DNA of 64,000 bases, taken from contig JACPQY010000060.1 in NCBI GenBank assembly GCA_016190245.1, positions 1 to 64,000 on the forward strand, in the 5' to 3' direction. This stretch comes from Nitrospirota bacterium (lineage in GTDB: Bacteria; JACPQY01). The notes below the pieces were generated by a model that was not told where the DNA came from, did not search any database, and saw nothing but the letters and a program-made list of their open reading frames with translations. The translations under genes were made by a program, and so were the position numbers. Positions 12,301-51,601 of the stretch are shown here, piece after piece (within the stretch, counting starts at the first letter, position 1; each line of letters begins with the position of its first letter).

Positions 12301-13403
12301 TCCTTGTCAACAAGGGCGAAAAGATCAGCGACAAGGTGCTGGACGAAATCCCGTTCGAGCAGCTCGGTAAGCTGGAGTTGACCTCGACGGAGACTCAGGA
12401 GGAAGTTCAGCAGGCCCTCGAGCGTGCCTATGAGTTGATTGACTTGGTCAACGCGTCCTTCGACAAGAAGATCGAGAAAATCAAGAGCGGGGACGAGTTG
12501 CAGGCCGGCGTGGTGAAGCTCGTGAAGGTGTACGTGGCCGTCAAGCGCAAGCTCACCGTCGGCGACAAGATGGCTGGACGGCACGGCAACAAGGGCGTGG
12601 TGTCCATCGTCGCCCCAACCGAGGACATGCCGTTCCTCGATGACGGTGCCCCGGTGGACATCGTCCTCAACCCGCTGGGGGTGCCCTCGCGCATGAACGT
12701 CGGCCAGATTCTCGAGACCGCCCTAGGATGGGCGGCCGCCGAGCTGGGGAAACGGGTGGAGGAGGCCGTGCGGGCCCGTCGCCTGGCGGAGGACATCCGC
12801 GAGATCCTCGTGGACATTCACAAGGAAGACCGCGATCTCTCGACTTGGCTCAAGGAGGCCACGCAGAAGGAGGTCATGGAGTTTGCGCTGGGCGAGCGCG
12901 ATGGGATTCATGTCTCTACGCCCGTCTTCGACGGCGCGGCCGAGGCCGACATCCAGGCCCACTTGAAATCGGCGGAGCTCCCCCTCTCCGGCCAGGTGCG
13001 GCTGTACGATGGTCGGACGGGCGAGCCCTTCGCGCAGCCCGTCACGGTGGGGGTGATGTATATGATGAAGTTGCACCACCTTGTGGATGACAAGATCCAT
13101 GCCCGCAGCGTGGGCGGGTACTCGCTTGTCACCCAGCAGCCCCTGGGTGGAAAGGCCCACTTCGGCGGCCAGCGGCTGGGGGAAATGGAGGTGTGGGCGC
13201 TAGAAGCCTACGGCGCGGGCCACACGCTCCAGGAATTCCTCACCGTGAAATCCGATGACGTGACCGGGCGCAACCGGGTGTACCAGGCGGTGGTGAAGGG
13301 GGAGACCGATTTCGAGATCGGGATGCCGGAATCCTTCAACGTCCTGGTCAAGGAACTTCAGGGGCTTGGCCTGAACGTCGAGCTCCTGACCGAGGGAGCC
13401 TAA
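9318..13403 (+). CDS. rpoB: DNA-directed RNA polymerase subunit beta
   Basis: A 1361-aa beta subunit of normal length. Conserved landmarks include the rifampicin-pocket segment [14 protein letters not shown] and [29 protein letters not shown], the [10 protein letters not shown] loop and the C-terminal [21 protein letters not shown]. In the rifampicin region the almost invariant GPGGL reads GVGGL (Val534), and the preceding FFGSS-type stretch is FFYTG. The upstream start is set by a GGGGGAGGA Shine-Dalgarno. rpoC begins 17 nt later, the standard order. Confidence 0.98.
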
Positions 13404-13420
13404 CCCGCAGGAGGTGTTCG

Positions 13421-16400
13421 GTGCGCGAGTTTATCAACCTCTTCGAGCCCACCATGAATCCGCAGACGGTGCGGGCGATCAAGATCAGTCTCGCCTCGCC
13501 GGAGCAGGTCCGAAGCTGGTCCTACGGGGAGGTCAAGAAACCCGAGACGATCAACTACCGGACGTTCAAGCCTGAGAAGGAAGGGCTCTTTTGCGCCAAG
13601 ATTTTCGGTCCCGTGAAGGACTACGAGTGTCTGTGCGGGAAGTACAAGCGGATGAAGCACCGGGGGCTCACGTGCGATCGCTGCGGCGTGGAGGTCATCT
13701 CCGCCGACGTGCGCCGAAAACGCATGGGTCACATCGAACTCGCGGCGCCCGTTGCCCACATCTGGTTCATCCATTCGATCCCCTCGCGGATCGGCTCGAT
13801 TCTGGACTTGAGCCCCAAGGAATTGGACCGTGTGCTCTACTTCGAGTCCTACGTCGTCACGGATCCCAAGAAAACCAATCTGCGCACCGGCCAGGTCCTT
13901 TCCCGGGATGAATACCACGAGGCCCGCAAGGTGCACGAGGGGCAATTCGACGCGGGGATGGGGGCCGAGGCCGTCGAGAAACTGCTGAAAGACGTCGACA
14001 TGAAAAAACTCACCGAGGCGCTCCGCGCCCAGATGCGGGAAACGGAGACGGAGACCAAGCGGAAGAAGCTCCTCAAGCGGCTCAAGGTGGCGGATGCCTT
14101 CCTCAAGTCCGGCGTGCGCCCGGAATGGATGATCCTCCGCGTCATTCCGGTCATCCCGCCGGATCTCCGGCCCCTGGTTCCCCTCGAGGGCGGACGATTC
14201 GCCGCGAGCGACCTCAACGAACTCTACCGGCGCGTGATCAACCGGCACAACCGCCTCAAGAAGCTGCTGGCCCTCGACGCGACGCCCGAACTGATCTTGA
14301 ACAATGAGAAGCGGATGCTACAGGAGGCCGTGGACGCGCTCTTCGAGAACGGCCGGCGTGGTCGCATCGTCTACGGGCGGAACAAGCGGCCCCTCAAGTC
14401 CCTCTCGGACCTCATCAAGGGCAAACAGGGCCGGTTCCGCCAGAACCTTCTCGGCAAGCGGGTGGATTTTTCAGGGCGGACCGTGATCGTGGTGGGTCCC
14501 GAGTTGAGACTCCACCAGTGCGGGCTGCCCAAGATCATGGCGTTGGAACTCTTCAAACCCTTCGTCATCGGCCGGCTTATCGACCGCGGCCTCGCCACCA
14601 CGGTGAAGGCGGCCAAGAAAATGGTGGAGCGCGGGGAATCGGTGGTGTGGGACATACTGGACGAGGTGGTTCGGGAACACCCCATTCTCCTGAACCGCGC
14701 GCCCACCCTGCATCGCCTCAGCATGCAGGCCTTTGAACCGGTGCTCACCGAGTACAAGGCCATCCAACTCCATCCCCTGGTCTGCACGGCCTTCAATGCA
14801 GATTTCGACGGCGACCAGATGGCCGTGCACGTGCCCCTCTCGGTCGAGAGCCAGACGGAGGCGCGGGTGCTCCTCATGTCCACCAACAACATTCTTTCCC
14901 CCGCCCACGGCAAGCCGATCATCAACCCGACGCAGGACATCGTGTTGGGCATCTACTACCTCACCCGCGAGCGGGTGAACGACAAGGGTGAGGGGATGAT
15001 CTTTCGCAGCTTTGTCGAGGCCCGGCAGGCCTATGACAACGGTGTGGTGGGACTGCACGCGAGGATTCAGGTGCGGGTGGACGGTAAGCTGCTCCGAACG
15101 ACTCCGGGCCGCGTCATCCTCTCGGAGGTGGTCCCGCCGGAGATCCCGTTCGATACGATCAACCGGCTGATGACCAAGAAGGAACTGGCCCGCCTCGTGG
15201 ACGTGGTCTATCGCAAGGTCGGCCTCAAGGCGACCGTGATCATGGGCGACCGGCTCAAGGACATGGGTTTCCACTTCGCCACCATGGCGGGGATCTCTGT
15301 CTCGCTCCAGGACATGCACATTCCCTCGAACAAGGAGAAGCTGATCGAGGCCGGCTACAAGGCGGCCCAGGACACGGAGGAGCAGTACCGCGAAGGCGTG
15401 ATCACGGAAGGCGAGAAATACAACAAACTCATCGACCACTGGAACCGGATCACCAATGAGATCGCCGAGGAGATGAAACGGGAGATCAGCGTGGAGGAGA
15501 TCGGGAACAAGGAAGGCAAGAAGGAGCGGCAGCTCTCGTTCAATCCCCTCTTCATGATGATCGATTCCGGCGCGCGCGGCAGCGAGGAGCAGATGCGACA
15601 GCTCGCGGGCGTGCGCGGCCTGATGGCCAAGCCCTCCGGCGAAATCATTCCCACGCCCATCACGGCCAACCTGCGCGAGGGGCTTTCGATGTTGCAGTAC
15701 TTCATCTCCACCCACGGCGCTCGAAAGGGTCTGGCCGACACGGCCCTCAAGACCGCCACGGCCGGATACCTGACGCGCCGGATGGTGGACGTGGCGCAGG
15801 ACACGATCGTGAACGAGATCGATTGCGGCTCTCTCGACGGCATCGACATCACGGGTCTGATGCAGAGCGGTGAGATGAAGGTGCGCCGGGCCGATCGCGC
15901 CCTCGGTCGGGTGGCACTCACGGACATCGTCAACTCCGTCACCGGCGAGGTGATCGTCAAGGCCAACGAGGAGATCGATGAGGAGAATGTGGAGAAGCTC
16001 AACGAGGCGGGTGACACCGTGGGCCACCTCACCGTGCGTTCGCCGCTCACGTGCCAGACGCGGCACGGCGTCTGCTCGCTGTGCTACGGGCGGGACCTCG
16101 CGCGGGGCCGCCTGGTGCACCTGGGCGAGTCCGTGGGTATCATCGCCGCCCAGTCCATCGGCGAGCCGGGCACGCAGCTCACGATGCGGACCTTCCACAT
16201 CGGAGGCACTGCAACCCGCCGTGTGGAGAAGAGCACGGTCGAGTCTCCGGTGGACGGTACCGTGGAGTTCGGGGACAAGCTGCGCGCAGTGGAGAAGGGC
16301 GAGAACCGATGGGTCGCCATGACGCGCAACGGCGAAATCAAGGTCGTCGGTCTTGGCGGCGCGGTCCATCGCTTCCCCATCACGTACGGGGCCGTCCTCC

Positions 16401-17569
16401 TGGTAAAAGACGGGCAGAAGGTGAAGAAGGGACAGCTCCTGGCCGAGGGCGATCCCTACTCCAGCGTGATCCTGACGGACGTCGCGGGGACGGTCCGCTA
16501 CCAGGACGTCCTAGAAGGCATCACCATGCAGGAGCAGGTGGACGAGGCGACGGGTCTCGCGCGCAAGATCATTATCGCGTCCAAGAACGTGGACCTGAGG
16601 CCACGGATTCTCGTTCAGGACGGTGCCGGCCGCGACACGGGCTACTTCTTGCCCGTTGGCGCCCACATCAGTGTGGAGGACGGCTCGCACGTCGAATCCG
16701 GAGACTTGGTTGCGAAGATCCCGAGGGAAACGACGAAGACCAAGGACATCACCGGCGGTCTGCCGCGCGTGTCGGAACTCCTCGAGGCCCGCCGCCCCAA
16801 GGAAGTCGCCGTCATCACGGAGATCGATGGGATCGTTTCTTTTGGCAAGGATGTGAAGGGCAAACGCACGGTCCTGGTCACGCCGGACAAGGGCGAGCCC
16901 AAGACCTACCAGATCCCGCGGGGGAAACACATCTGCGTGCACGAGGGTGACTACGTCAAGGCCGGCGACCAGCTCATGGATGGGACCCCCAACCCCCATG
17001 ACGTGCTCGTCGTGCGCGGCGTAAAGGACCTGGCCCGATACCTCGTGGACGAGATTCAGCTCGTGTACGACTCCCAGGGCGTGAAGATCAACGACAAGCA
17101 CATCGAACTGATCTCACGCCTCATGCTGAGGAAGGTGAAGATCACCTCCGCGGGCGACACCACGTTCTACGTGGGCGAGGAGGTGGACAAGTTCAACTTC
17201 GAGGAGGAGAACGCCCGCATTGTGAAGCAGGCCGGCAAGCCCGCCACGGCGGAATATATTCTTCAGGGGATCAGCCGCGCCTCGCTCTCCACGGACAGTT
17301 TCATCTCGGCCGCTTCGTTCCAGGAGACGACCAAGATCCTGACCGACGCCGCCGTGGCGGGGAAGGTGGACTCGTTGCGCGGTCTCAAGGAAAACGTGAT
17401 CGTCGGGCGGCTTATCCCGGCCGGAACGGGTTTCCCCAAGTACCGCAAGACGGAGATCGACGTGCCGCTCGAAGCACCGGCGGAGCAGCCGGCGACGCCC
17501 CTCGATGCTCCCGAGATGCAGCCACCGCTCGTCTTCACGCCCATGCCTGAGAAGGCGATCGAGGAGTAG
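13421..17569 (+). CDS. rpoC: DNA-directed RNA polymerase subunit beta'
   Basis: A 1382-aa catalytic subunit starting at GTG 13421 after CAGGAGGT. The N-terminal zinc ribbon is [16 protein letters not shown]. The absolutely conserved active-site motif [16 protein letters not shown] (three Asp chelating Mg) is present. The trigger loop/bridge helix region is followed by a second zinc site ([13 protein letters not shown]) and the [13 protein letters not shown] motif. The last residues are Pro-rich. rpsL starts 3 nt downstream, so rpoBC reads straight into the str genes. Confidence 0.98.
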
Positions 17570-17572
17570 CGA

Positions 17573-17944
17573 ATGCCTACCTTCCAGCAGCTTATTCGTC
17601 ACGGGCGGGTACGTACGCGCAAGAAGAGACGCACCACCGCTCTCCAGAGTTGTCCCCAGCGGCGGGGGGTCTGCACACGCGTCTACATCATGACCCCTAA
17701 GAAGCCCAACTCCGCCCAGCGCAAGGTAGCCCGCGTGCGGCTTACCAACGGTGTCGTGGTGACGGCCTACATCCCGGGCGAGGGCCACAACCTCCAGGAG
17801 CACTCCGTGGTCCTGGTGCGCGGCGGGCGCGTCAAAGACCTGCCGGGCGTGAAGTACCATATCATCCGGGGTGTGCTCGACTGCCAAGGCGTGGGTGAGC
17901 GGAAAAAGAGCCGCTCGCGGTACGGCACGAAGCGGCCGAAGTAA
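17573..17944 (+). CDS. rpsL: 30S ribosomal protein S12
   Basis: A 123-aa protein with the decoding-centre loops [20 protein letters not shown] (broadly conserved) and [13 protein letters not shown], then [12 protein letters not shown]. The lysine in TPKKPNS corresponds to the wild-type residue at the main streptomycin-resistance position. It opens the str block, 3 nt after rpoC and 18 nt before rpsG. Confidence 0.98.
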
Positions 17945-40385: not shown

Positions 40386-40412
40386 TAAAGTTCTTGGCGA
40401 ACTGACCGATCA
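40386..40412 (+). promoter_or_regulatory. sigma-28 promoter of flagellin 1
   Basis: -35 TAAA (40386-40389), spacer 15 nt beginning GTT, -10 ACCGATCA (40405-40412), against the FliA consensus TAAA-N15-GCCGATAA. A second CCGAT follows exactly 9 nt after the first (40415). The flagellin start codon is 90 nt downstream. Confidence 0.85.
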
Positions 40413-40502: not shown

Positions 40503-41411
40503 TTGGCGATCCGCCTGAACACGAATCTGGCGGCGCTCGATGCACTGTTCTACCTGAACCGGCATACAGAGCGCGCCCAGAACTCCATCGAGCATCTCTC
40601 GTCGGGTCTGCGCGTCATGCACGCGGCGGACGACCCAGGCGCGATCAGCCTTACCGTCCGACTGAAAGTCGAAGCTCTGGGGTTCGAGCAATCGGCCCGC
40701 AATGCGAACGAGGGGGCCACGTTCATCCAGATGGCCGACTCCGCCACGGCGGAGATCGCGGACGTCCTGGGCGCCATCCGGGGCCACGCCCTGCAGGCCG
40801 CGAACGGGACGATGGACTCAGCGGCGCGCGCCGGGTTGAGCGTGACGTTCACCAATCTGAAAAGCGAGATCCAGCGCATCATCAACACGACGAAGTACGG
40901 CGACATCTTCATGCTCAAGACAACGAACAGCGCTGGCGGCACGGGGAGCACGGGGACGGTGGCCACCAACCTCACACTGCCGGGCGTCACCTTCGCCCTC
41001 GGCCCGAGCGCGGACCAACTCCGGCCCTTCGTCTTCTCGATCGGCGTTTCCTCCGTGGAAGCCTCGCTGCGCGGCGCCACAACCGGCCCCAACTCCGAGG
41101 TCCTCCAGTACGGAACGATGACCTCCGTCTCCGCCGCCAAGAGCGTGCTCACGGCGGTGGACAGCGCGATTCGATCGATCTCGTTCTTCCGGGGGGCCCT
41201 CGGAGGAGCCCAATCAGGGCTCTTACAGGCGGCGGAGGCGGACGAGACCACCGCTCTCAACGTGACCGCGGCGTTGAGTGGCGTCCAGGACCTGGATTTC
41301 GCAGCGGAGGTGGCCAACTTTACTCAGGCTTCGATACTCCAGCAGGCCGCCATGGCGTTCCTCGCGCAGGCGAACCTGCTCAACCAGACCGTTCTCACAC
41401 TTCTAGGATAG
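40503..41411 (+). CDS. flagellin 1 (divergent paralog)
   Basis: A 302-aa flagellin. The N-terminal D0/D1 domain begins MAIRLNTNLAALDALFYLNR with SSGLRVMHAADDPGA. The C-terminal D0/D1 ends AMAFLAQANLLNQTVLTLLG. Between them lies only a short middle (about 110-200), so there are no D2/D3 surface domains. Start TTG 40503 has an AAGGAGG ribosome site. It is more diverged than the other two flagellins (46539, 47945), e.g. DPGAISL for the DVAALAL of the others. It is exported by the flagellar type III system and polymerises into the filament. Confidence 0.95.
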   Translation: MAIRLNTNLAALDALFYLNRHTERAQNSIEHLSSGLRVMHAADDPGAISLTVRLKVEALGFEQSARNANEGATFIQMADSATAEIADVLGAIRGHALQAANGTMDSAARAGLSVTFTNLKSEIQRIINTTKYGDIFMLKTTNSAGGTGSTGTVATNLTLPGVTFALGPSADQLRPFVFSIGVSSVEASLRGATTGPNSEVLQYGTMTSVSAAKSVLTAVDSAIRSISFFRGALGGAQSGLLQAAEADETTALNVTAALSGVQDLDFAAEVANFTQASILQQAAMAFLAQANLLNQTVLTLLG

Positions 41412-41640
41412 GCGGGGTAAGAGCGGCAGGGAACGAATGGGCGACCTCACAACGGCATCAATGATTTCTGAAATGTGGGATAACCACCCCCCCCGTGGGG
41501 GTGACAGGGGCGAGTCCATGGACGGCTCGCCCGCATCAATGTGCCCCCTGCCATGGAGGGCACGGGGCCATGCAACGTCGCCGCGCCCGCGATGGCGCGG
41601 CGGATACCATGGCCTTAGGTCAACATAAGGAGGTGACACC
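41412..41640. repeat. hairpin-rich leader before the mini-flagellin, with repeat copy B1
   Basis: The 229-nt gap has a CACCCCC/GGGGGTG hairpin near 41488-41506 and a GCGAG/CTCGC hairpin near 41510-41530. Repeat B1 (41541-41614) has a conserved hairpin (TGCCATGGAGGGCA core closed by GCCCC/GGGGC), then CATG, a second stem CGCCGCGCC/GGCGCGGCG, and CCATGGCC. A near copy of the first half is at 61071-61140. No sigma-28 promoter was found here, so the mini-flagellin is probably read from the flagellin 1 promoter. Confidence 0.6.
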
Positions 41641-42024
41641 ATGGGCACTCGCATCAGCAACGATAGCAGCAGCCTGCCGGTTCGCGCCGGCTTCGATCCG
41701 GCCCTCGCGACACTCCAACGAGCCCTCACGAGGCTGACCTCGGAGATGAGAGCCGCAGAGACGGACCCCGACGATCAGGACGAAGGGCCGGTAACCCGCA
41801 TCGGACTGGGGACGCTCGGAGAGCTTCGTCGAGCCCTCGGGAGCGCCGGCGAAAACGAGTCCGGCGAGGCCAACCGCTCGGCGGCGGAGGCAGACATCCT
41901 CGACGTGGATCGTGCCGGCGCCACGGCCGCCCGCATCCAGCGTTCGATCCTGGCCGACGCCGGAATGGCGTTCGTCAGCCAGGCCAATCTTCCTTCTGAC
42001 AGTATCCTGACGGTGCTCGGCTAG
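41641..42024 (+). CDS. mini-flagellin: small protein with flagellin C-terminal helix region only
   Basis: A 127-aa protein with a near-perfect ribosome site AAGGAGGTGA (41627-41636). It starts MGTRI exactly like flagellins 2 and 3, then diverges into a Glu/Asp/Arg-rich middle. From about residue 80 it matches their C-terminus: LDVD.A, SILADAGMAFVSQAN, then SILTVLG at the very end. Alignment with flagellin 3 over the last 41 residues is gap-free. The N-terminal D0/D1 partner helix is missing. It may be a FliS ligand, filament junction or capping part, or a decaying copy; the strong ribosome site argues for function. Confidence 0.75.
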   Translation: MGTRISNDSSSLPVRAGFDPALATLQRALTRLTSEMRAAETDPDDQDEGPVTRIGLGTLGELRRALGSAGENESGEANRSAAEADILDVDRAGATAARIQRSILADAGMAFVSQANLPSDSILTVLG

Positions 42025-42036
42025 CACCGTTGACTT

Positions 42037-42089
42037 GGGATACCCCCACCCCGCGTCATGCGGGGTGGGGGATCCAGGCACAGAAGATC
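42037..42089. repeat. 53-bp hairpin repeat, copy A1 (left of glycosyltransferase)
   Basis: Contains the perfect stem CCCCCACCCCGC / GCGGGGTGGGGG with GTCAT loop, flanked by GGAT and ATCC. A copy differing at one base lies at 43693-43745 in the same orientation, so the two copies bracket the glycosyltransferase gene. No T-tract follows, so it is a repeat rather than a simple terminator. Confidence 0.85.
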
Positions 42090-42186
42090 ACAGCGACCGT
42101 GGGAGGGGGCGCCGCACGTTTCCGCGGCGAGCGGGGACGGCGAATCTTCGCCCTCCGGCGGGGGGGGGGCGGAACTGCTGGATGGC

Positions 42187-42213
42187 TAAACCCCCGGTGT
42201 ATGCAGCCGAATG
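42187..42213 (+). promoter_or_regulatory. sigma-28 promoter of the glycosyltransferase gene
   Basis: -35 TAAA (42187-42190), 15-nt spacer, -10 GCCGAATG (42206-42213), the first five bases of the FliA -10 consensus being exact. The start codon at 42231 is 18 nt further, leaving a leader of about 11 nt. Confidence 0.75.
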
Positions 42214-42230
42214 CCTATGAGGGCAGGTCT

Positions 42231-43625
42231 ATGCCGAAGCGGACGCTCTTGTGGACCATGTGGCCTGACGAGCTCTCGGCCGAGCTGGGGCACTACTTCG
42301 ACGTCGTCTACCTCCAAGATGTCCCCCGGATGGCGGCCGTCGGCCCGAACTTCCGAGTAGACCAGAGGCTAAGGGCCATTCAGAAGGGGCGGGACCATCC
42401 CATCGAGATGCTCTTTCTCAATGCCTGGACGCGGACGGACTCGCTTCTCGGGATGGAACTCCTGCCGGTGCCGGCCGTGGTGTATCTCCACGACACGAAC
42501 TACGACTTGGATTCCTGCGATTGGGACCTTGCGCAGGGATTCGCCTGGGTTCTCGTGGAGAACGCGATATCCGTCGAATACCATGTCGGCCGGCGCGCTC
42601 CCTACGCCGTGACTTGGTGTCCGCTCTACTTCAAGTGGCCGGCCCGGGAGGCGCTCCGATGTCGGCCCGGCAATCCGAGGCGGCTGGATGTCGCCTTCGT
42701 GGGTAATCTCAGCGTGGAGTTGCACCCGGGTCGAGCGGATTTCCTGAGGGCGGTCGAGCGCCGGATCGCCGGGAGATGGAAGGTCTCCTTCGGTCCCGGG
42801 AAGGTTCTTGAAACCTACGCCGACGCCAAGATCGTTCTGAACGAATCGTGGTCCCCGAAAGGTGGAGCTTCAGCCGCTCCCTATGGAATCAACTTCCGTG
42901 TCTTCGAGGCCATGGGGTGTGGAGCCCTGCTTCTGACCGACTCGCCCACGGGGGATATGTCCACCCTGTTCCATGAAGGCGTCCACTACGTCGGGTTTGA
43001 GCGAGGGAACGTGGACCAAGTGGTGGACCTGGTCGGCCACTATCTAGATCGCGAGGTCGAGAGGCTCTCGATCGCCCAGGCGGGCTGGGAGGAAGTGGTC
43101 CGCTCCCACACCGTTGAGGCTCGCGCACAGGTGCTCGCGCCCCTCTTGACGACGATCGCGGAGAATGGGCGCGGCCTTGCGACGGCCGATCCCACGCGCG
43201 CTGCGTTTCACCTGGGCCGCTACATTCTCAGGAGTCTTCTCGTCTGGCGGCTCCAGTCGCCTTGCGCTCGGCACCCCCAGTACGTCGAACGCTTGGCGGA
43301 GGCTGAGCGACTGCTTGGGAGTGTTCTCAGTTCGCCGGATTGGGGACCGGCGGCGCGGGCGTTGCTGCCTGTGATCCGGTTCGTCATGGGAGATCCCCAA
43401 GGTGCGGTGACCGATTGGCTGGGGCTGCTGGATCAGGCCTCGACAGCAGCCTTCTCGGCCCCTTTCCTCACGGCGCTGAGCGCCAGACCGGATTCGCCAT
43501 TCCGGGGGGGTATCCTCCCCAGACTCCAAGAGGTCACCCTTGCGCCACTCCCGAGTGAGGAGGACAAGGTCATGGCGGAGATGGCGTTTCGGGCATGCTA
43601 CGCCCGAGGCCCGCAACCTTCCTGA
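42231..43625 (+). CDS. CgeB-like glycosyltransferase, probable flagellin glycosyltransferase
   Basis: A 464-aa cytoplasmic protein. The N-terminal half has a GT-B-type layout (TLLWTMWPDELSAELG, VVYLHDTNYD). The second domain (residues ~190-310) carries the glycosyl-transfer motif NFRVFEAMGCGALLLTD and a HYVGF..GN..QVVDLV region, typical of the CgeB/Glyco_trans_1_2 family. Residues 320-464 are helical and unassigned. It has its own sigma-28 promoter and lies among flagellin genes, so modification of flagellin with sugar is the likely role. The acceptor and sugar are unknown. Two copies of a 53-bp repeat flank it. Confidence 0.8.
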   Translation: MPKRTLLWTMWPDELSAELGHYFDVVYLQDVPRMAAVGPNFRVDQRLRAIQKGRDHPIEMLFLNAWTRTDSLLGMELLPVPAVVYLHDTNYDLDSCDWDLAQGFAWVLVENAISVEYHVGRRAPYAVTWCPLYFKWPAREALRCRPGNPRRLDVAFVGNLSVELHPGRADFLRAVERRIAGRWKVSFGPGKVLETYADAKIVLNESWSPKGGASAAPYGINFRVFEAMGCGALLLTDSPTGDMSTLFHEGVHYVGFERGNVDQVVDLVGHYLDREVERLSIAQAGWEEVVRSHTVEARAQVLAPLLTTIAENGRGLATADPTRAAFHLGRYILRSLLVWRLQSPCARHPQYVERLAEAERLLGSVLSSPDWGPAARALLPVIRFVMGDPQGAVTDWLGLLDQASTAAFSAPFLTALSARPDSPFRGGILPRLQEVTLAPLPSEEDKVMAEMAFRACYARGPQPS

Positions 43626-43802: not shown

Positions 43803-46238
43803 TCATACCAGGATGTCCGTGGCGAGGTCTCCCTTGGTCCGAAGGGCGAGGATCCGCGCGGTTTCCTCCCGTAGCTGCCGTTGAACCTCGGAAAGCTGGG
43901 TCTCCTCGTTCTTGATCAGGCTCAGGTGGAGGTCGATAGAGCCGGTCTCCGAACGGATCATCCGGGTAAGCAGTTCGTAGAGGCGCTCGGCCACGCCGCC
44001 GCCGTCCTCCGGGATGAAGAGGTCCTGGACCATTTTGGGTTGTCGCTCGGCCGCGCTGAGGAAGGCGCCTTCGTCCAGCTCCAGCATGTCGTTGGTGAGA
44101 GCGGAGATCCCCACCTGGCTGAGCCTCTGGAAGATGGACCGCTCCCCCTTGGGGACAGGCGGCCCGCCCTGCGGGTCCCCGGCGCGGAGGCGCCGAAGGA
44201 GCGTGAAGAGGGCCGTTTCCACGAAGGTGAACTTCTCCGGCGAGGCGTTCGTGATGCCGATCTCAGACAGCTCGTCGCGGTCCTCCGAGAGGACTCCCAC
44301 GGGGAACTCCACGCCGCGCACCAGATCGGTCCGGATGGCCTGCATCGTGGCGTCTCGCTCGAGGACGCGACGCCCGGCGAGGAGGTCGTTCACTTCGAGC
44401 ATCGTGGCGTTGTAGGTGTCCACGAAGGTACGCATTCGCTCGAGGAGCGCTTCCGCGGCGATATCCACCCCGACGGTCTCCGTGTCGTAGATCAGTTTGT
44501 TTTTGTCCGTTGGCAGAATGACGCCGGCCAGGATGAGGTTCCGAACCACGTCGTCGATGCTCTCGCCGGTGATGAGGCGTGACTTCTGCGTGAGGCTGTT
44601 CTCGCCGCGGCTGTAGATCCGGCCGTCCAGCGGGTTCTTCACGAAACGCGATGTGCCATCCAGCAGGAGGTCGAGGCCGGTTGTGAATTCCCCGATGGAC
44701 GTTTCGTACTCCGAGCGGCGTGTGAGAGGCGAGACGACGATGGAAGGTTGCTCGTCCTGCAGCGGGTTCTTGAACGTAAAGCTGTTGTAGGTGATGCCCG
44801 GTTCGTCGGCTTGGACGGCCTGGTAGGTGTCCCTGTACGTCAGCCCGAGCTGATCGATGATGTTGGCCTCTCCGGAACCGGACGTGTTCTCGAGGGCGAT
44901 CCGGCGGCCGGGATCGAGGCTCTCCAGGCGGAGCCGGCCGGACACGATGGAGGCGCGCACGCCGATCCGATCCGAATTGGTGGTGACGATCCCGTCGCGG
45001 TTGGCCGCGCTTTCGAGCTTGTCCGCATCCGCCACGTAGTCGGTGCGGAATTCGTTCGGGTCCACGATACGGTCTTCCGAAACGCGGATGTAGGCCACGG
45101 CTTTGCCGGAAGAGGCATCCACGGTGATGGGGCCGTCGATGATGCCGTTTTTGTTGAGGTCCTCGAGGCCGAAGTTGATCTGGTCTGCGATCCCCTGGAG
45201 GCTCCACATCCGAGCCCCCACGGCGCGCCGTTCGCCCTGGGTGAAGTCCGTCGGCGACACGCCATAGGGTGCGCCGGGGCCGCCCACCGTATCGCGATCT
45301 TCCATCAGCCCCCGTGTATCCACGAGGATCTTGAACCCGTTGATCCTGAAGCTGCCGACGAGGTCCCCCCCCCCAAGGCTCGTCAGGCGCGCGTCCGGGC
45401 TCGAGAACGTGTCGGACTCGACCACATGGGCCCGTGTAACCTGCTGGACGGCCACGTTGAAGGATTCTGTGTCGGCCTCGTTGGTAGCGGAGGCGTTCAC
45501 AATCGAGGAGTCGCTCGTCGTGCCCGATTTCACGATGAAGCTCGCGGCGTCGAGGAGGGGAACCACCTGGCTGCGTAGCCCCTCGAGGAGTGACTTCAAG
45601 GCCTTGAAGGATTCGGCCCGGAGGTCGAGGACACGGGGGTCGGTCTCGAGGTTGTCCTGGATGGGATTCGTGTTCTGTACCCGGGAGAGTTCTTGGAGAA
45701 CGTCCTGCACTCGGAGGGCGGAGGTGATCCCGCTGTTGAGGATGACCGCGGGGACGCGCCGGCGCACAAACAGGAAGGAGGTCGTGGCAATGTCGCTCAT
45801 CCCGCGCAGATCGATGAAATGGACGGTCTGCGTGGAAACGGCCTCTGCCGGCGAGGTTTCGAAGCCTTCGGACGCGGCCTGCGGTGTGAAGGTCGCCTCC
45901 GTGGTAGCGCCGGCCACGGCAGGGCGCCCGTCAATGATGGAGTAGGCGAATCGGATGTTCTGGGAGAGGCGCGCGCCGGTAAATCGCGCGCGGGTGATGT
46001 TCTGACTGAGATGCTTGAGCTCGTCGGCCGTGACGGCGATGGGGTGGAACTGGTAAGGGACCACGACGGGAACCCCGTCTGCGTTGTAGAAGAAGACATC
46101 TACCTCGGCGCTTTCGGGGAGGATTGGGACCGCGTCCTCCGCGGGAGGCTCCTTCCTGGGCGGTGTGGTGGTTCGGTCCGCGGGCCTTGGGGCGCCCGAG
46201 ATTGGAGCCGTTTGTGAAGGCAAGTTCACAGGTTGCAT
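43803..46238 (-). CDS. FliD paralog (hook-associated protein 2-like) with N-terminal extension
   Basis: An 811-aa protein, against 450-650 for usual FliD. Residues 1-200 are an extension I cannot assign. From about 205 the FliD N-terminal pattern appears: SFKALKSLLEGLRSQV, DAASFIVKSGTTSDSSIV, ATNEADTESFNVAVQQVTRA. A hook-type insert follows (VRASIVSGRLRLESLD). FliD C-terminal features are FVDTYNATMLEVNDLL, LSEIGIT, MLELDEGAFLSAAE and a coiled-coil end. A loop DLNKNGIIDG (near 45132-45161) looks like a Ca-binding loop. It is transcribed divergently from flagellin 2 with its own sigma-28 promoter and an almost leaderless start. Confidence 0.8.
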   Translation of the reverse strand: MQPVNLPSQTAPISGAPRPADRTTTPPRKEPPAEDAVPILPESAEVDVFFYNADGVPVVVPYQFHPIAVTADELKHLSQNITRARFTGARLSQNIRFAYSIIDGRPAVAGATTEATFTPQAASEGFETSPAEAVSTQTVHFIDLRGMSDIATTSFLFVRRRVPAVILNSGITSALRVQDVLQELSRVQNTNPIQDNLETDPRVLDLRAESFKALKSLLEGLRSQVVPLLDAASFIVKSGTTSDSSIVNASATNEADTESFNVAVQQVTRAHVVESDTFSSPDARLTSLGGGDLVGSFRINGFKILVDTRGLMEDRDTVGGPGAPYGVSPTDFTQGERRAVGARMWSLQGIADQINFGLEDLNKNGIIDGPITVDASSGKAVAYIRVSEDRIVDPNEFRTDYVADADKLESAANRDGIVTTNSDRIGVRASIVSGRLRLESLDPGRRIALENTSGSGEANIIDQLGLTYRDTYQAVQADEPGITYNSFTFKNPLQDEQPSIVVSPLTRRSEYETSIGEFTTGLDLLLDGTSRFVKNPLDGRIYSRGENSLTQKSRLITGESIDDVVRNLILAGVILPTDKNKLIYDTETVGVDIAAEALLERMRTFVDTYNATMLEVNDLLAGRRVLERDATMQAIRTDLVRGVEFPVGVLSEDRDELSEIGITNASPEKFTFVETALFTLLRRLRAGDPQGGPPVPKGERSIFQRLSQVGISALTNDMLELDEGAFLSAAERQPKMVQDLFIPEDGGGVAERLYELLTRMIRSETGSIDLHLSLIKNEETQLSEVQRQLREETARILALRTKGDLATDILV

Positions 46239-46538: not shown

Positions 46539-47447
46539 ATGGGCACAAGGATCAACACCAACGTTGGTGGACTGCTCGCCACGTTGAACCTGAACAAGAA
46601 CTTCTCGTCGGCTCAGCTCTCGATCGAGCGGCTCTCATCGGGCCTCCGGATCGTGCGGCCGGCCGACGACGTGGCGGCGCTGGCGCTGTCCACCACCTTC
46701 CGCGCCGATGTCGCGGGATTCACCCAGTCCGCCCGCAACGCCGCGGACGGGGTCAACCTCATCCAAACGGCGGACTCGGCGGCGTCCACCATCGTTGACA
46801 CCCTCAACAATATTCGCTCGCTGGCGCTCCAGGCCACGAACGGCACGGTCGATTCGGCCGCCCGGCTGAGTATCGGCGCCGAGTTCACCCAGCTCAAGAG
46901 CGAGGTCCAGCGAGTCATCAGCACTACGAAGTACGGCGAGATTTCTCTTCTGGCGACCACGAACTCAGCGGGGGGGAGCGGCTCCGCCGGCAAGCTCGCC
47001 GCGGACGTGACCCTCGCCGGGCTCAAGTTCGCCCTGGGCCCCGCGGCGGAGACCCTGATGCCGTTTGTCTTCTCCAACGGCGTCTCCTCCGTGGAGGCCT
47101 CGCTGCGGGGCGGGACGACCGCCGGCAGCTCCGAGGTTCTCCAGTTCGGAACGATGACGTCCGTCTCCGCGGCCAAGAGCGTGATCACGGCCGTGGATAG
47201 CGCGATCCGTTCGATGTCGATGTTCCGCGGCGCCCTGGGCGGCGCGCAGGCCACGCTGGCGACCGCGCAGAGCACGGACGAGACGACGAGCGCCAACCTG
47301 CAGGCCACCCTCTCGCAGATTCAGGATGTGGACTTCGCGACTGAAGTGGCGAACTTCACGAGCAAGTCGATCCTGGTTCAGGCGAGCATGGCATTCCTGG
47401 CGCAGTCCAACCTGCTCCAGCAGAGCGTTCTTACGCTTCTCGGTTAG
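46539..47447 (+). CDS. flagellin 2
   Basis: A 302-aa flagellin starting MGTRINTNVGGLLATLNLNK, with SSGLRIVRPADDVAALAL and the C-terminal AMAFLAQ-type helix ending QQSVLTLLG. The middle is short (no D2/D3). It is nearly identical to flagellin 3 through both termini and much of the middle, so one is a recent duplicate or they are kept alike by gene conversion. ATG 46539 follows AAGGAGG; longer in-frame starts lie in the leader. An intrinsic terminator follows at 47473. Confidence 0.97.
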   Translation: MGTRINTNVGGLLATLNLNKNFSSAQLSIERLSSGLRIVRPADDVAALALSTTFRADVAGFTQSARNAADGVNLIQTADSAASTIVDTLNNIRSLALQATNGTVDSAARLSIGAEFTQLKSEVQRVISTTKYGEISLLATTNSAGGSGSAGKLAADVTLAGLKFALGPAAETLMPFVFSNGVSSVEASLRGGTTAGSSEVLQFGTMTSVSAAKSVITAVDSAIRSMSMFRGALGGAQATLATAQSTDETTSANLQATLSQIQDVDFATEVANFTSKSILVQASMAFLAQSNLLQQSVLTLLG

Positions 47448-47944: not shown

Positions 47945-48853
47945 ATGGGCACAAGGATCAACACCAACGTTGGCGCACTCATGGCCACGTTGAATCTGAA
48001 CAAGAACTTCTCGTCGGCTCAGCTCTCCATTGAGCGGCTCTCATCGGGCCTGCGGATCGTTCGGCCGGCCGACGACGTGGCGGCGCTGGCGCTTTCGACC
48101 AGCTTCCGCGCAGACGTGGCGGGCTTCGCTCAGTCCGCGCGCAACGCCGCGGATGCCGCCACGCTCATCCAGACCGCCGACTCGGCGGCGTCCACCATCG
48201 TGGACACGCTCAACACCATCCGCTCGCTGGCTCTCCAGGCCACGAACGGCACGGTGGACTCGGCTGCCCGCCTGAGTATCGGCACGGAGTTCACGCAACT
48301 CAAGAGCGAGGTCCAGCGCGTCATCACCACCACGAAGTACGGCGAGATTACCCTTCTCGCCACGACGAACTCCGCGGGCGGGACCGGCTCCGCCGGGAGG
48401 CTCGCCACGAACGTTACCCTCGCCGGGCTCAAGTTCGCCCTGGGCCCAGGAGCCGAGGTGCTCATGCCGTTCACGTTCGCCAATGGCGTTTCCTCCGTGG
48501 AGGCATCGTTGCGCGGCGGGACGACCGCCGGCAGCTCCGAGGTTCTCCAGTTCGGGACCATGACGTCCGTTTCCGCGGCCAAGAGCGTGATCACGGCCGT
48601 GGACAGCGCCATCCGCTCGATGTCGATGTTCCGGGGCGCCCTGGGCGGTACGCAAGCAACGGTGTTGACTGCCCAGAGCACGGACGAGACGACGACCGCC
48701 AACCTGCAGGCGACGCTCTCGCTGATTCAGGATGTGGACTTCGCGACTGAAGTCTCCAACTTCACGAGCAAGTCCATCCTGACGCAGGCAGGCATGGCGT
48801 TCTTGGCGCAGGCCAACGTGCTGCAGCAGACGGTTCTCACGCTTCTCGGATAG
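47945..48853 (+). CDS. flagellin 3
   Basis: A 302-aa flagellin, paralog of flagellin 2 with the same start MGTRINTNVGALMATLNLNK. It has the same short middle and the end AGMAFLAQANVLQQTVLTLLG in two conserved blocks. Differences from flagellin 2 are scattered single residues. ATG 47945 follows AAGGAGG. It is followed by a stable hairpin at 48871. FliD and FliS genes are next, giving a filament-assembly block. Confidence 0.97.
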   Translation: MGTRINTNVGALMATLNLNKNFSSAQLSIERLSSGLRIVRPADDVAALALSTSFRADVAGFAQSARNAADAATLIQTADSAASTIVDTLNTIRSLALQATNGTVDSAARLSIGTEFTQLKSEVQRVITTTKYGEITLLATTNSAGGTGSAGRLATNVTLAGLKFALGPGAEVLMPFTFANGVSSVEASLRGGTTAGSSEVLQFGTMTSVSAAKSVITAVDSAIRSMSMFRGALGGTQATVLTAQSTDETTTANLQATLSLIQDVDFATEVSNFTSKSILTQAGMAFLAQANVLQQTVLTLLG

Positions 48854-51208: not shown

Positions 51209-51601
51209 ATGCCCTTCGATCCCCTCCAGGCATATCGCCAAGCGTCGATCAACACCGCGCAGCAGGGCCAGCTCATTCTGATGATGTACGAGGGCGCGAT
51301 GAACCACCTCAAGATGGCCAAGGAGAAGATGGTTCAGAAAGACATCGCGGAAAAAGGCAAGCACCTCACCAAGGTGATCAGCATCATCTCGGCACTCAAC
51401 ATGGCCCTCAACGAGGAGGCTGGCGGGGAGATCGCCAAGAACCTGCGCTCCCTCTATTTCTTCATGACCCGCCACCTCACCGAGGCCAATATCCAGAATT
51501 CGCCCAAGCATCTCGACGACGTCCTCAAGGTCCTCAACACGCTCTACGACGGCTGGCGCACGATCATCGTCGAGAGGCGTCACGAGCTGCCCGCGAGCTG
51601 A
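51209..51601 (+). CDS. fliS: flagellin export chaperone FliS
   Basis: A 130-aa four-helix protein. AYRQASINTAQQGQLILMMYEGAMNHL is the family's N-terminal signature in pieces. Then come KVISIISALNMALNEEAGGEIAKNL, LYFFMTRHLTEANI and KVLNTLYDGWRTI. FliS binds the disordered C-terminus of flagellin and stops premature polymerisation. The mini-flagellin at 41641 keeps just that C-terminal segment. ATG 51209 follows GAGGGAGG. Confidence 0.95.
   Translation: MPFDPLQAYRQASINTAQQGQLILMMYEGAMNHLKMAKEKMVQKDIAEKGKHLTKVISIISALNMALNEEAGGEIAKNLRSLYFFMTRHLTEANIQNSPKHLDDVLKVLNTLYDGWRTIIVERRHELPAS

Follow-up and report, generated by a model that had tools for sequence, protein, structure and literature searches.

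What is a 127-codon reading frame doing among the filament genes of a flagellin cluster, and is it a working gene or the remains of one? The question is raised by a short flagellin-like gene, here called the mini-flagellin, which follows a full-length flagellin gene in the window (the whole stretch of 64,000 nucleotides that was analysed). The mini-flagellin is known from one genome only, a draft that is 84.8% complete. Its sequence, its position and the pattern of its divergence are considered in turn (features in Table 1).

A coding gene of flagellin descent

The reading frame starts with ATG behind a Shine-Dalgarno sequence, as a preliminary description of this DNA had reported; this sequence, AAGGAGGTGA, ends 4 nt ahead of the ATG. 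Codon log-odds, which are positive in frame (Table 1), fall to -0.43 and -0.56 per codon in the other forward frames and reach at best +0.15 on the reverse strand; for comparison, the adjoining spacers score -0.35 to -0.53 and the three full flagellins of the window +0.41 to +0.51. Given the strength of the ribosome site and codon use of this kind, the translation proposed earlier is very probable.

The similarity to flagellins is beyond chance, since phmmer matches the protein to flagellins among the window's own open reading frames at 2e-8 to 9e-8 and to the best flagellin at the corresponding locus of G001, the only other genome of the phylum compared, at 4.9e-11. Among profile models, the best NCBIfam flagellin model reaches 8e-5, Pfam Flagellin_C (PF00700) scores 17.5 bits, under its curated cut-off of 23, and Pfam Flagellin_N (PF00669) gives no match. 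An AlphaFold model of the protein (pLDDT 47) was too poor for a fold search. The mini-flagellin is a real, coding, reduced flagellin, descended from an ordinary one through the loss of its middle.

Table 1. Features of the mini-flagellin locus and related genes in the window.
Feature	Position	Strand	Remarks
Sigma-28-type promoter TAAAGTTC-N11-ACCGATCA	40386..40412	+	upstream of first flagellin; 13/16 consensus
Upstream full flagellin	40503..41411	+	TTG start, 302 aa
Leader CATAAGGAGGTGACACCATGGGCAC, ribosome site and start	41624..41648	+	25 nt identical to leader of G001 L021:16914-17837 (-)
Mini-flagellin reading frame	41641..42024	+	ATG start, 127 aa; in-frame codon log-odds +0.35 per codon
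Degenerate flagellin N-terminus (ND0/start of ND1), codons 1-46	41641..41778	+	gap-free register with full flagellins; neutrality not rejected
Junction; ~175 residues of ND1, variable domain and CD1 absent	41779..41808	+	relative to 302-307 aa flagellins
CD1 end and CD0, codons 57-127	41809..42021	+	39-45% identical to full flagellins; last 26 residues ~59%
12-bp G+C-rich hairpin without T run	42043..42071	+	just 3' of mini-flagellin stop
Full flagellin	46539..47447	+	302 aa; own sigma-28-type promoter
Full flagellin	47945..48853	+	302 aa; own sigma-28-type promoter
FliS (flagellin chaperone), proposed partner	51209..51601	+	Pfam FliS 1.6e-39

Loss of the middle of the protein

The preliminary description had seen a protein reduced to the C-terminal region, without the N-terminal helices, a view that the alignment of the other end corrects. 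Over residues 1-46 the protein runs in gap-free register with the same stretch of the full flagellins, and a degenerate ND0 match is present even when the opening MGTRI, rightly described as shared with the two main flagellins, is left out (residues 6-46 beat 20,000 shuffles, p=3e-4). In an offset scan this register was the best or second-best for four of the five flagellins tried, and the pattern kept is MGTRI followed by ...Q..[IL].RL[ST]S.[LM]R......D, with D44 included. A MAFFT alignment of all four proteins had placed the N-terminus in the wrong register, which the gap-free and offset scans corrected. At the other end the match to the full flagellins spans 71 residues with one 1-residue gap, and within it the last 41 residues match the main flagellins without a gap, just as had been claimed.

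Between positions 46 and 57 of the mini-flagellin the missing residues include the D1 core helices that hold the filament together, and the protein probably cannot polymerise in the normal way, in agreement with the earlier proposal. No credible remnant of the lost middle lies in 41412-42240; a weak tblastn hit to part of this middle, found near the mini-flagellin, lies on the opposite strand and was taken as a composition effect. The gap-free N-terminus together with the extended C-terminal match therefore points to internal deletion plus divergence and not to a C-terminal fragment.

Position and transcription

In G001, locus L021 on the opposite strand has the same gene order as the window: a Crp-like gene, a TTG-start flagellin, a second flagellin, a FliD-like gene, flagellins and glycosyltransferases, FliD and FliS. 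The position of the mini-flagellin is occupied there by a full 307-aa flagellin (L021:16914-17837, -) with which it shares its leader (Table 1), while the other flagellins carry different ones. Since the protein tree does not place the mini-flagellin, which sits on a very long branch with the full flagellins clustering by genome, orthology with the 307-aa flagellin rests on position and leader. An apparent full-length match elsewhere in G001 (L017) proved to be an ordinary 308-aa flagellin. The main-type flagellins (46539-47447 and 47945-48853; L021:8510-9436, 12964-13890 and 16914-17837) group by genome and not by position, which points to recent duplication or gene conversion that the mini-flagellin would have escaped. 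Another contig of the mini-flagellin's genome (G000; contig C30, L048) carries a flagellin N-terminus at bases 8-139, cut by the contig end, and the genome may encode one flagellin more than the assembly shows.

All but two of the flagellin and fliD-type genes examined in the two genomes are preceded by a sigma-28-like promoter with 12-13 of 16 consensus matches. The exceptions are the mini-flagellin and its G001 counterpart, which have no sigma-28-type promoter of their own (best scores 8.5 and 9, where shuffles average 8.6) and therefore probably depend on the promoter of the first flagellin; in the window, the promoter ahead of the upstream gene is the probable source for the pair. A scan for sigma-70 promoters and terminators gave nothing clearly above chance. 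The 229-nt spacer ahead of the mini-flagellin is full of G+C-rich hairpins (41485-41620; fold z-score -1.8), which could lower read-through into it and may be a terminator, an attenuator or a repeat. Hairpins similar to the one behind its stop codon trail the other flagellins and the G001 gene at the same position.

Several neighbouring genes have features of their own. In both genomes the leading flagellin gene of the cluster has a TTG start codon (40503-41411, +; L021:18032-18928, -) despite a strong ribosome site. A Glyco_trans_1_2 glycosyltransferase (42233-43625, +), for which the TTG at 42030 listed as its start probably lies too far upstream, sits within the cluster, flanked by the mini-flagellin and the FliD-like gene; the G001 cluster holds a homolog of it and a second glycosyltransferase. 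The FliD-like gene (43803-46238, -) encodes a second FliD-like protein of 811 aa, which extends far beyond the FliD domains at its N-terminal end, has its own sigma-28-type promoter and is 58% identical to its G001 counterpart; a pattern scan of GTDB contigs with this protein found no further relative.

Selection on the two ends

Over the C-terminal 71 codons, where the amino acids remain 39-45% identical to those of the full flagellins, third positions agree in only 28-44% of cases. Simulated neutral decay to an amino-acid identity of ~0.4 leaves third positions at ~0.66-0.7, so the observed pattern is the reverse of neutral decay, with third positions nearly random while amino acids are kept. 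Under a codon branch model, which averages over the time before and after truncation and applies a single omega to every site, omega=1 on the mini-flagellin branch is rejected for the C-terminus (2dlnL=31, p=2.6e-8; omega_fg 0.03, a rough value because synonymous sites are saturated on this branch). It is also rejected for both ends together (p=4e-7, or p=4e-5 with the mini-flagellin placed basally), whereas the N-terminus taken by itself gives no rejection (p=0.31). A dN/dS near 1, which the preliminary description would have read as the mark of a decaying copy, is thus rejected at the C-terminal end while the N-terminal end is compatible with it.

When the branch is divided into a constrained and a subsequent neutral phase, the best neutral time for the C-terminus is zero, with up to ~0.3 substitutions per site allowed, and for the N-terminus a neutral phase of ~0.4 substitutions per site fits slightly best. 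In simulations at 0.3 neutral substitutions per site, 23% of frames stay stop-free, a figure that leaves out frameshifts. Long-term neutrality of the mini-flagellin is rejected, and a moderate recent neutral phase is unlikely.

The C-terminal tail and FliS

Retention in the mini-flagellin, measured against conservation among full flagellins, is 0.30-0.32 for the N-terminal end, 0.52 for CD1, 0.44 for the first part of CD0 and 0.71 for the last 26 residues. ND0 is normally among the most conserved parts of flagellin, and here it keeps only ~20% identity. In the C-terminal part, 17 of the 37 positions that are invariant in full flagellins are changed, one of them to proline, and the conserved core positions altered include F->R twice, L->E and L->P. 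The roles at the hook junction, at the cap or in ending the filament that had been suggested find no evidence here, with two conserved C-terminal phenylalanines turned to arginine and most of the conserved ND0 positions lost.

In known complexes, flagellin winds its last 40 residues around FliS (PMC6070490, PMC7248283). Mutation of V299 and L300 of Hag abolished filaments (PMC6070490), and by alignment these residues correspond to I122 and L123 of the mini-flagellin; the Helicobacter pylori FliS contacts Q501, N503 and L513 (PMC7248283) map in the same way to Q114, N116 and L126. The distal contact residues (Q114, N116, I122, L123, L126) are thus kept, while proximal ones are gone (E481->A94, F485->R98); Q297->D120 and A500->S113 are also changed. 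This division would fit a protein that has stopped packing into filaments and retains its tail for FliS, which it would bind more weakly or in an altered way, and the binding to FliS entertained in the preliminary description is to that extent compatible with the residue mapping. FliS, FliW and CsrA are all encoded in the genome, the last two close together and elsewhere in it.

Search for other short flagellins

Homologs of the mini form, whose absence from related genomes had been named beforehand as a sign of decay, did not come to light. The mini form is absent from G001, and a search of 386 genomes with the mini-flagellin protein recognised no short flagellin inside a contig. A search of 193 genomes (nearly all at least 90% complete) with Flagellin_C likewise recognised no contig-internal short flagellin among the matches listed; in both searches only some short frames were fetched for inspection, and rare mini-flagellins could be missed. 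The short C-terminal frames inspected in G335, G147, G119, G134, G282 and G205 lie at contig ends, and those on G189 C19, G101 C52 and G134 C14 begin less than 300 bases from the contig start; all were taken as assembly breaks. A pattern scan of GTDB contigs with the mini-flagellin protein found no further relatives.

Function or decay

The reading that we tentatively prefer, with a probability somewhat short of even, is that the mini-flagellin is a non-polymerising reduced flagellin kept for its FliS-binding tail. Its ancestor would have been a full flagellin, second in a two-gene operon, from which an in-frame deletion presumably removed the middle. The product would now be a small soluble helical protein that builds no filament and retains the D0-C tail for FliS. 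Probably made together with the first flagellin from the latter's sigma-28 promoter, it could compete with the full flagellins for FliS, perhaps also at the FliS-FlhA docking step, and so act as a small chaperone buffer or brake. The contact that FliS makes with flagellin D1 cannot form in the mini-flagellin, which counts against this proposal. A more specific form, in which reduction has turned a flagellin into a dedicated FliS-binding decoy that sits in the same operon as a flagellin and meters chaperone-guided export as a substrate-derived brake at the protein level, is unlikely.

The mini-flagellin may also be decaying, and this is the main alternative, only somewhat less probable: a redundant member of the operon would have lost its middle in frame and now be drifting, its frame open by luck and its leader persisting because function was lost recently compared with the divergence from G001. 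The full-length flagellin at the same place in G001, the failure to find the mini form in the other genomes searched, the loss of about half of the invariant C-terminal positions and the three or more other flagellins remaining in the genome all suit such a course, as does the N-terminus, where neutrality is not rejected and a neutral phase fits slightly best. However, all 127 codons are still open, which the simulated neutral phase preserves in a minority of cases even before frameshifts are counted, the codon signature is intact, and C-terminal third positions are near random with the amino acids kept. Moreover, drift after the truncation should hit both ends alike, yet divergence is strongly uneven (0.3 of normal conservation at the N-terminal end and 0.7 in the last 26 residues). 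A FliS-binding, non-polymerising function is somewhat more likely than a decaying remnant, a choice that one genome cannot settle.

Export of the mini-flagellin as a minor structural subunit, which would use its D0 helices to join the filament at its base or tip or to cap it there, is improbable. The outline of both D0 segments can still be made out, the C-terminal tail survives and the gene lies among filament genes, but the low identity of ND0 and the core substitutions stand against it, and no D1 is left to hold adjoining subunits. Still less probable is a regulatory flagellin that acts on flagellin translation through FliW and CsrA instead of FliS, in the manner of FljJ, which acts through FlbT in Caulobacter and shows that a flagellin can serve as a regulator (PMC7591256). 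The proximity of the FliW and CsrA genes would suit this idea; however, the parts of flagellin to which FliW binds, its N-terminal 60-72 residues and its D1 helices (PMC6070490), are degenerate or missing in the mini-flagellin, and FlbT was not found in the draft genome (85% complete).

Comparison with known systems

One close counterpart is the G001 flagellin at the same position, which resembles the mini-flagellin in its place after the TTG-start flagellin, in the 25-nt leader and start, in having no sigma-28-type promoter of its own, in the hairpin after the stop and in its C-terminus (45% identity). It differs in being an ordinary 307-aa flagellin with both ends and the whole middle. FljJ of Caulobacter crescentus is a flagellin paralog turned regulator that forms no filament alone (PMC7591256); it differs in working through FlbT, which did not turn up in the draft genome of the mini-flagellin, and in being assembled next to the hook as well.

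The preliminary description knew of no family with this architecture, which was too strong, as similar short relatives of flagellin are already known and almost unstudied. In Bacillus subtilis, yvzB has been described as encoding a smaller Hag homolog, with a transcript of possibly ~500 nt (PMC4793158, PMC8929632, PMC10458515). It is expressed with its own time course in the transcriptome (PMC10458515; expression also in PMC4793158), and YvzB is not needed for assembly or motility (PMC8929632); nothing on its mechanism was found in the literature. As a short flagellin homolog beside a full flagellin it is likened to the mini-flagellin by description and not by sequence; common descent of the short form is not expected, and the operon position and leader are peculiar to the mini-flagellin.

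The mechanism proposed here has its parallel, again by description, in HP1076 of Helicobacter pylori, a small flagellin-like protein with a D1-like fold that competes with flagellins for FliS (PMC7248283). HP1076 differs in its length of 171 aa and in resembling D1 rather than D0-C. If the mini-flagellin is not functional, it is a clear example of the loss of a flagellin gene by internal deletion. If it is functional, it would show how a protein of the filament can shrink to the tail that its chaperone binds and take on a regulatory task, and little-studied short homologs of flagellin, YvzB among them, would gain a testable role.
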